Assembly (NCBI RefSeq): GCF_900111485.1
Contig: NZ_FOIC01000007.1
Span: 1 to 64,000 of the forward strand
Source of the DNA: Natrinema hispanicum
GTDB lineage: Archaea; Halobacteriota; Halobacteria; Halobacteriales; Natrialbaceae
Direction of reading: 5' to 3'
Length of the DNA stretch: 64,000 bases
Within the stretch, counting starts at the first letter, position 1; each line of letters opens with the position of its first letter. This document shows, piece by piece, positions 18,682-20,700 of this stretch. Position numbers and translations under genes: made by a program. A model generated the notes under the pieces. That model saw only the letters and a list, made by a program, of their open reading frames with translations. It was not told the origin of the DNA and made no database searches.

Positions 18682-19476
18682 TTACTCCGAAAGTGCGTCG
18701 ACCTCGAGTGACGTCGCCGTCCGCCAATAGTGATCGAGTGAGTCCTCGGCCCACGCGCGGACGGCGTCGTCGTCGGTGTCGACGGCGGCCCGCAGGATGC
18801 CGTTCTCGTCGCGCAAGAGCAGACAGACGTCCGCGTCGACGATCATGATCGCGATCGGGACGCCCTCCTCTCGAACTCTGATCTCGGCGTTGTCGGCCGA
18901 CAGCAGCGCCTCGAGCTGACCGCGAAGTCCGGACTCGTCGGCCAGCGCGTCGATCGCGTTCTGGCCGAAGACCCCCCTGAAGCGCTGCTCGCCCGCAGTC
19001 ACACGGTCTCGAACGACGCCTAGCGTCTGCTCGTTGAACGTATGCGAAAACGTCCGGACTTCTTCACCCGTCCGGAGAAACTCGAGCAACCGACTCAGCG
19101 GCGCGTTCGGCCGCGTCGCGCTGGGAGTGGTAATCGTCGCGTCCGAAAGCCGCCGCAGGTCGAACTCCATCGCGTGGGTCGGCAAGTAGTCGACGATCTC
19201 ACGCAGTTTGGCCTCCGTCTCGAGGATCTCCTGGAGATCAGTGAACCCCTCTGCGACCAGTCGCCCCGTCGCGGTCGCGACGTATGCATTGCCGTCGTGT
19301 CTGATCCACGACCGGTCCGCAAAGTCACCGAGGATCCGACCCAGCGTCGCCTGCGAGGCTCCAGTCGCCGCAGCTAGTTCGGTCCGCGTGTGTCGCCCGT
19401 CCGAGAGCAACCGGAGGACCTCAACGCGATTTGACGACAGTGCGAGAAACTCGATCTCCTCGAGCGCCGATTCCAT
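18682..19476 (-). CDS. Winged-HTH transcription regulator (haloarchaeal, ArsR-like N-terminus)
   Basis: 264 aa starting MESALEEIEFLALSSNRVEV. The N-terminal wHTH (about 5-75) includes RTELAAATGASQATLGRILG; the C-terminal half is an alpha/beta domain like those seen in haloarchaeal regulators annotated as DUF1724-type or MarR/ArsR-like, with GVPIAIMIVDADVCLLLRDE near the end. It is divergent from the DMT transporter gene across a 163-bp gap up to the latter's leader, so it may control that gene. The start is set at 19476 because upstream residues are alanine/arginine-rich and unlike the family. Confidence 0.8.
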   Translation of the reverse strand: MESALEEIEFLALSSNRVEVLRLLSDGRHTRTELAAATGASQATLGRILGDFADRSWIRHDGNAYVATATGRLVAEGFTDLQEILETEAKLREIVDYLPTHAMEFDLRRLSDATITTPSATRPNAPLSRLLEFLRTGEEVRTFSHTFNEQTLGVVRDRVTAGEQRFRGVFGQNAIDALADESGLRGQLEALLSADNAEIRVREEGVPIAIMIVDADVCLLLRDENGILRAAVDTDDDAVRAWAEDSLDHYWRTATSLEVDALSE

Positions 19477-19611
19477 ACGGGTTCTCGTCGCCGCCGCGGC
19501 AAATTGGTTTCGCACCGTGCAAGGTTTTCAGAGGGTGCAGCAATAGCAGGGTCTCGGCCGCTTTCTCGGCTCGTCCGCTTTTCTTACTATGAAATGTTTT
19601 CTGAATCAAAC

Positions 19612-19617
19612 TATAAA
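19612..19617 (+). promoter_or_regulatory. TATA box of the DMT transporter transcript
   Basis: TATAAA is 28 nt before the ATG at 19640, not before the transporter ATG at 19714. The transcript therefore probably begins with the small reading frame at 19640. Confidence 0.65.
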
Positions 19618-19639
19618 CCCGGAGTTCGTACGGTGTAGT

Positions 19640-19714
19640 ATGATCATCTTCGCGATTCGCGCGTCGGCTGCTCTCGAGTCGGCGCAATCGGTCCACACGG
19701 GGGTGGCGGGATAA
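19640..19714 (+). CDS. Possible 24-codon leader peptide ahead of the DMT transporter
   Basis: ATG 19640 is placed at the expected transcription start of the TATA box at 19612. The frame encodes 24 residues starting MIIFAIRASAALESAQ and ends in TAA, whose last A is the first base of the transporter's ATG (TAATG). Such an overlap supports translation by coupling. The peptide itself has no recognisable domain and could be just a leader. The evidence is placement only. Confidence 0.4.
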   Translation: MIIFAIRASAALESAQSVHTGVAG

Positions 19715-20700
19715 TGATGTCCCGTCGCAGTGCCGTCTTCTTCGCGCTCTCGAGTCTGCTCTTCGGTGGGACCTTCGTCGCCGCGAAAGCCGGGCTCGCG
19801 TACTTCCCACCACTGCTGTTCGTGGCGCTGCGCTACGACATCGCGGCGGTGGTCATGCTGGCGTACGTCGGGCTGACCGGTTCGCGGTCGGCGCTGCTCC
19901 CGCAGAGTCGCGGCGACGTTGCCAGCATTCTCGCGACCGGCGTCCTCGCGATCGGGGTGACGAACGCCTTGCTGTTCGTCGGCCAGCAGTACGTCTCGAG
20001 TGCCGTCTCCTCGATCATCTACAGTCTCAACCCGATCATGACGCCGGTGTTCGCCGCGGCGTTGCTCTCTGATGAACGCCTCTCTCAGCGCGGCGCGGCC
20101 GGGATGGGACTTGGCCTCGTCGGCGTCGGCCTCGTGGTCAGCCCGGATCCCGCAAATCTGCTGGCGGGAGCCGTCGGTAAGGGCATCCTCTTCGCCGCCG
20201 CGATCAGCGCCGCATTGGGTGCCGTGTTGATCCGCCGGGCCGACAGCGACCTCTCGAGTCCGGTCCGCGTCGCTTGGGGGCTGCCCTTCGCCGCAGCGCT
20301 GAGTCACCTGCTGGCCTGGGCAAGCGGCGAGTCGGCGGCTGCGATCACGTGGACGACCGAGGCGCTGCTGGCGCTTGGCTACGTGAGTGTCTTCGCTGGT
20401 GCCATCGCCTACGTCGCCTACTTCGGGCTTATCGATTCGGCCGGCGCGATCCGCGCGAACCTGATCTTCTACGTCGTGCCCGTCGTCTCGACGCTCGGCG
20501 GCTGGGCACTGCTCGGTGAGACGATCGATGCGCTCGCGATCGCCGGCTTCCTGACGATCTTCGCCGGCTTCGCCGTGCTCGGCAGCAAGTCGATCGATAT
20601 CGGCTCGCTGCTCCCGGATGTCGGCTCCGACGTGGCGTCCTCGTCTGCCGACGGCGAGTCGGTCGTCAGGGAGGAACCGCGGGGCTACCGCTCGGACTGA
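19714..20700 (+). CDS. EamA/DMT-superfamily transporter
   Basis: 328 aa with about ten membrane segments in two EamA repeats, for example FFALSSLLFGGTFVAAKAGL and ITWTTEALLALGYVSVFAGA. The family moves small metabolites, often amino acids or nucleotides, out of or into the cell; substrate unknown. It begins ATGATG; the first ATG is used because of overlap with the leader frame. The polar C-terminal tail (DVGSDVASSSADGES) is acidic. Divergent to the wHTH regulator at 18682. Confidence 0.88.
   Translation: MMSRRSAVFFALSSLLFGGTFVAAKAGLAYFPPLLFVALRYDIAAVVMLAYVGLTGSRSALLPQSRGDVASILATGVLAIGVTNALLFVGQQYVSSAVSSIIYSLNPIMTPVFAAALLSDERLSQRGAAGMGLGLVGVGLVVSPDPANLLAGAVGKGILFAAAISAALGAVLIRRADSDLSSPVRVAWGLPFAAALSHLLAWASGESAAAITWTTEALLALGYVSVFAGAIAYVAYFGLIDSAGAIRANLIFYVVPVVSTLGGWALLGETIDALAIAGFLTIFAGFAVLGSKSIDIGSLLPDVGSDVASSSADGESVVREEPRGYRSD

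Follow-up and report, generated by a model that had tools for sequence, protein, structure and literature searches.

Related short reading frames in bacteria and archaea

The closest described counterparts of the arrangement reported here are mycobacterial. Shell et al., 2015 (PMC4633059) describe leaderless small ORFs coupled to the gene downstream, one of which has an unconserved sequence but a conserved linkage. The upstream ORF (uORF) analysed here, which precedes a transporter gene of Natrinema hispanicum, resembles these ORFs in its predicted leaderless start, in a length within their range of 5–50 codons and in a stop codon that overlaps the next start; as in that one mycobacterial example, the peptide is unconserved while the linkage is kept, and delivery of ribosomes to the downstream gene has been discussed for the mycobacterial ORFs (PMC4633059) and is stated as an idea in a 2025 review (PMC12548453). 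The mycobacterial system is bacterial and is backed by transcript mapping and ribosome profiling, whereas the present case is archaeal and read from sequence alone; it also differs in concerning one transporter family, in extending across an order, and in showing more spacings than the RTGA overlap. The kind is already known in mycobacteria, and the uORF is, as far as its layout tells, an order-wide archaeal member of it.

Other described systems share single features with this locus. Gene pairs of Haloferax volcanii (Huber et al., 2019, PMC6728339; Huber et al., 2023, PMC10666635) have the same -4, -1 and other short spacings and carry a Shine-Dalgarno (SD) motif inside the upstream frame; those pairs, however, are annotated genes tested with reporters, whereas the upstream partner here is a filler frame predicted to open the mRNA. 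The 16 uORFs that Babski et al., 2016 (PMC4983044) report from long haloarchaeal 5'-UTRs are likewise short (15–31 aa) and precede haloarchaeal genes, several of them for transport. They were sought in 5'-UTRs of 150–250 nt and all have low isoelectric points. Here the leader is about 74 nt long, the peptides have net charges centred around 0, and the uORF ends right at the transporter start. For bacterial leader genes, Korolev et al., 2016 (PMC4833913) raise a similar hypothesis of a leader frame that increases expression by reinitiation, with a peak distance of 10–11 bp in Actinobacteria, compared with -7 to +3 nt here. Searching titles and abstracts of the openly licensed literature, we found neither this uORF nor a conserved archaeal uORF for ribosome delivery.

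A short frame between the promoter and the transporter start

The window is the whole stretch of DNA analysed, 64,000 nucleotides of N. hispanicum (contig NZ_FOIC01000007.1, positions 1 to 64,000, forward strand). The features relevant here are:

18682–19476, minus strand: divergent regulator with an HVO_A0261 N-terminal domain and a FilR1 middle domain (domain search)
19580–19601, no strand assigned: operator-like element TTTC-N7-GAAA-N3-TTTC, likely a site of the regulator; its last TTTC opens the promoter block
19598–19617, plus strand: basal promoter block, with a BRE-like element at 19602–19611 (TGAATCAAAC) and TATAAA at 19612–19617
19640–19714, plus strand: predicted leaderless-type uORF, 24 codons and TAA, its peptide sequence free to vary
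19699–19706, plus strand: SD-like stretch GGGGGTGG, within the last uORF codons and 7 nt before the transporter ATG
19714–20700, plus strand: EamA/DMT-family transporter, 328 aa (PF00892, E 8.6e-34)

The uORF consists of ATG 19640–19642, the 24 sense codons MIIFAIRASAALESAQSVHTGVAG and TAA 19712–19714, and the TAA shares 1 nt with the transporter ATG (19714–19716), which is followed directly by a second ATG at 19717. The earlier note had placed TATAAA at 19612, a 24-codon frame at ATG 19640 and a TAATG overlap with the transporter start at 19714, and all of these positions were confirmed. The transporter scores 117.2 bits for the EamA domain, against a Pfam cut-off of 28.2; NCBIfam gave only matches far under the curated cut-offs, to models for exporters and amine/amino-acid transporters. 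It is 79–98% identical to its counterparts at 12 named loci, 11 from Natrinema and 1 from Haloterrigena. Paralogous DMT genes are found as loci L002–L004.

The uORF ATG lies 28 nt from the first T of TATAAA in the window; the usual distance in the genus is 31 nt. The promoter block commonly reads GAACGAAACTATA in relatives and GTGAAATATTTTCTGAACGAAACTATA within the genus, and the haloarchaeal BRE motif is given as CGAAA (PMC4983044). Measured over 400 kb of a congeneric genome, TATA-like words most often stand 28–32 nt from the first ATG of long ORFs. The distances of 28 and 31 nt fall inside this peak, which fits the leaderless start that the earlier note predicted. Leaderless transcripts make up 72% of the protein-coding transcripts of H. 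volcanii (PMC4983044). We predict a transcript start at 19640 or only a few nt away.

Judged by its architecture as a single case, the uORF in the window is unremarkable. We scanned 464 kb (the window and the 400 kb of congeneric genome), and the layout occurred at 1 of 405 long ORFs under a strict rule and at 2 of 388 under a relaxed rule, the case in the window included each time. The relaxed scan, which covered ORFs of at least 150 aa and a fixed list of TATA-like words, gave no sign of a genome-wide class: shifted control positions had counts of 0–4, and the starts of the 388 long ORFs were not enriched over them. The second candidate of the same layout lies in the congeneric genome (L136:10065), where a 15-codon frame with a GTGA overlap and GGAGGTGG precedes a 762-codon ORF.

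The arrangement is kept across genera

We collected orthologous loci from a search among relatives, which gave 28 further loci of the same genus and one other (L033), and from an order-wide search, in which 185 of 392 genomes had a transporter match at E <= 1e-75. From the matches listed, regions were picked to spread over genus labels (9 new loci from the order-wide search, then 8 and 80 more), and the orthologue set is accordingly a sample. In total 127 loci were located, 29 of them from the same genus and with 43 genus labels among them; 126 have an upstream region, the locus at a contig end (L120) being excluded from uORF counts. Our rule took the best promoter-anchor match and the first ATG, or else GTG, 26–36 nt after the TATA position, and required a stop within -4 to +6 of the nearest in-frame transporter start, equivalent to a spacing of +3 to -7 nt. 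A first, looser rule had accepted ATG or GTG 20–42 nt after TATA and found the uORF in 103 of 126 loci; the limits were narrowed once these first results had shown that it picked early out-of-frame ATGs, and the count rose to 111 of 126.

These 111 loci, which are not independent counts because loci share ancestry, represent 37 of the 43 genus labels. Dinucleotide-shuffled leaders would pass at 38% per locus, or at 31% when the length was also changed at random, and the genus-weighted count was 35.3 of 43, compared with 15.7 and 11.6 for the two shuffles. A control for reading frame, excluding the 8 of 126 loci without an ATG or GTG within the narrow limits, found a stop at the transporter start in the uORF frame in 111 of 118 loci, whereas the two alternative frames reached only 10 and 4. 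Outside the genus the difference persisted (82 of 89, against 3 and 4 of 89), as it did under the looser rule (103 of 124 against 17 and 6, and outside the genus 76 of 95 against 9 and 6). The retention of the uORF in 111 of 126 loci, together with the failure of the other two frames, indicates that it is more than chance. It is the comparison between genera that carries the argument, since within the genus no constraint was apparent and one of the other frames is also free of stops. The linkage between stop and transporter start that the earlier note proposed thus holds across genera; that note had counted a frame without conservation as evidence against its reading, and the orthologues retain the frame.

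The length of the uORF ranges from 11 to 35 codons, most commonly 23–25. Among the named loci, of which at least 80 were listed, all 17 examined with a widened list of TATA words have a uORF, including 10 Haloferax species; a locus of H. volcanii was not found among the 80 named loci listed. In 91 of 111 loci a TATA-like word precedes the uORF start by 24–36 nt, and in only 2 of 111 does one lie at this distance from the transporter start; the first figure is partly built in, because the uORF ATG was searched for at a set distance from the promoter, and the second is not. This supports the assignment, made in the earlier note, of the TATA box to the short frame and not to the transporter. The distance from TATA to uORF start was 27–35 nt in the 111 loci (26–36 nt being required), and was 28 or 31 nt in 85 of them. 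At three loci (L006–L008) the start position reads ATGATG, suggesting that the uORF start moved one codon upstream, in frame, through a state with two ATGs.

The loci that fail the rule are of several kinds. Inspection by hand revealed a uORF with another start in 8 of the 15 (L037, L097, L104, L106, L109, L118, L123 and L126, none counted among the 111), and including these raises the genus labels with a uORF to 39 of 43. At L039, L108 and L124, which share one genus label, and at L055, the uORF overlaps the transporter by 10–13 nt. The least similar locus, L041, has no uORF. Two further loci, L084 and L090, lack the uORF, and there the transporter ATG itself lies 28 nt after the TATA position; the transporter looks leaderless at both, and this layout supports the place 28–31 nt after TATA as an initiation site. 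L038, a doubtful case among the loci that pass, does so only because GTG is accepted as a start.

The stop-start junction

The uORF stop stands at a spacing of -4 nt from the transporter start in 38 of the 111 loci, -1 in 26 and 0 in 21, with rarer spacings of +2 (10 loci), +1 (8), -7 (7) and +3 (1); prokaryotic gene pairs most often have spacings of -4 or -1 (PMC10666635). All three relative frames of uORF and transporter occur (81, 22 and 8 loci) with the stop still at the start, and three genus labels each hold all three, suggesting that stops were re-established beside the start after changes of frame.

The SD-like stretch reads GGAGGTGA in many relatives, and the copy in the window is weaker than most of theirs. 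Of the 111 uORF loci, 97 have at least 5 exact nt of GGAGGTGATCC within the 20 nt that precede the transporter start, compared with 2–10 of 111 for four other 20-nt windows, and in 71 of 111 loci a match of this length is spaced 7–10 nt from the start. The anti-SD sequence behind this matching is the generally known one; a pattern for the 16S 3' end had 0 matches in the N. hispanicum assembly.

Transporter start codons in the orthologues were assigned by similarity, and 63 of the 111 uORF loci have GTG, which is compatible with a site of reinitiation. To our knowledge, this share is high for haloarchaeal genes.

Probable ribosome delivery and alternative explanations

We consider it likely, with a probability of about 0.8, that a leaderless uORF of free sequence supplies ribosomes to the transporter by termination and reinitiation. 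The promoter at 19598–19617 would start a transcript on ATG 19640 or only a few nt from it, where ribosomes would begin in leaderless mode and make a 24-codon peptide without conserved sequence; they would terminate at TAA 19712–19714 and reinitiate at the overlapping ATG 19714, probably with help from the SD-like stretch at 19699–19706. The uORF would then be a ribosome delivery device, with selection acting on a start near the 5' end and a stop beside the transporter start and not on the peptide. Hand-over of ribosomes is the most likely function, and not a useful peptide, because the position of the uORF is kept across genera while its peptide varies. The leaderless initiation and coupled translation that the earlier note predicted are consistent with this anatomy, and the net effect of coupling may be to allow, raise or limit transporter synthesis. 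Work on H. volcanii describes the step that would be involved. There, SD motifs do not act in de novo initiation at 5'-UTRs, most SD removals at gene overlaps lowered reinitiation, and premature stops in the upstream gene abolished downstream translation (PMC6728339). Reinitiation in H. volcanii also needs a short spacing, falling to about half at 13–14 nt and near zero at 22–23 nt, and in E. coli it requires no more than the final 15 nt of the upstream gene (PMC10666635). With its stop held between -7 and +3 nt and an SD motif inside the frame, the uORF would offer what such a mechanism needs.

A short leader with a coupled stop and start before a transporter is also the textbook layout of a peptide-sensing attenuator, in which a metabolite is sensed through the nascent peptide or through how far the ribosome has advanced and the transporter is switched accordingly, and the earlier note had suggested an attenuation device. 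Many loci of the genus share MIFAIHASA-like peptide starts, as such a device might require; distant genera, by contrast, have no common peptide that we could see by eye, and the conservation of the peptide that the note had asked about in relatives was not borne out. Within the genus the pN/pS of the uORF was 0.97, much as in the other frames, no selection at the peptide level was found (column-shuffle test, p 0.78), and avoidance of nonsense changes was not significant (1.2 expected, 1 inferred; L029, with a 3-nt deletion, was excluded from both analyses). No run of sensed codons was seen by eye in the uORF. The leader had no match in Rfam, its folding is ordinary (z -0.62), and a consensus fold of 10 of the 29 genus loci has almost no covariation, with two-sided change in 1 of 28 predicted pairs. 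The single terminator-like site (19487–19500) is located before the promoter, and a site of its kind is expected by chance in the scan, which covers bacterial-type sites only; a sigma-70 scan, unsuited to archaea, returned 0 sites. With an unconserved peptide and no RNA switch found, a sensing leader peptide is not supported, and we regard attenuation as very unlikely. That the short frame encodes a small protein with a function of its own is scarcely credible: such proteins are common in haloarchaea (PMC4983044), but this one has no conserved sequence, varies from 11 to 35 codons, has a net charge centred on 0 and does not have gene-like GC3 (0.66–0.68, compared with 0.87 in the transporter). 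The frequent Glu-Val at the C-terminus of the peptide probably reflects the SD sequence GAGGTG read in frame.

The variable peptide, and the SD-like matches at 7–10 nt from the transporter start, would also suit an untranslated 5' leader of 74 nt with an SD site, in which the short frame is incidental. We give this little credence, since the frame control separates the uORF frame sharply from the other two, L084 and L090 retain an ATG 28 nt from TATA, and SD motifs in H. volcanii do not support de novo initiation (PMC6728339). A different reading of identical anatomy is that the uORF is mainly a brake: leaderless initiation at the first ATG would be unavoidable and only part of the ribosomes would reinitiate, setting a constitutive limit on a membrane protein. 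This is compatible with ribosome delivery, but the coupling would have the opposite sign. In 24 of 37 genus labels most transporter starts are GTG, which fits a brake; the concentration of SD-like sequence before the start, however, favours efficient reinitiation, and the two lineages that look directly leaderless suggest that a brake is dispensable there, though it could operate elsewhere. We consider a brake rather unlikely as the main role.

If ribosome delivery is the correct reading, the uORF would be a 5'-terminal archaeal mini-ORF that an entire order retains for where it lies and not for what it encodes, recognised without experiment from comparison of genomes. The loci would also provide roughly a hundred naturally occurring versions of a junction between termination and reinitiation, covering three frames, spacings of -7 to +3 nt and two losses, in a group with genetic tools. 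Start annotation and lists of small proteins in haloarchaea may misread such frames. Should H. volcanii also carry the uORF, the transcript starts and ribosome profiles already published would allow a direct test; ribosome profiling of H. volcanii was reportedly carried out by Gelsinger et al. in 2020. It is possible, though we put it forward tentatively, that haloarchaea, where de novo initiation at 5'-UTRs is not driven by SD motifs, initiate translation of selected genes by an additional route through leaderless mini-ORFs of free sequence. This order-wide case, whose stop has stayed at the transporter start through changes of relative frame, would be an ancient example, and regulation may act at the reinitiation step itself.

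The divergent regulator

In 122 of 127 loci and 42 of 43 genus labels the regulator is found divergently oriented upstream of the transporter, and the two genes form a very stable pair across the surveyed loci. The element TTTC-N7-G(A/C)AA-N3-TTTC occurs twice in the window, at 19508–19529 near the regulator start and at 19580–19601 abutting the transporter promoter. Among the 126 loci with an upstream region, TTTC-N6-8-GAAA was present 20–220 nt upstream of the promoter anchor in 100, compared with 0 for a complement-only control, and GAAA was present at most 9 nt upstream of the anchor in 79. The two elements are probably operators of the regulator. In the ORF list the regulator begins at GTG 19515 (18682–19515); ATG 19476, a codon that is aligned in relatives, is the more likely start.
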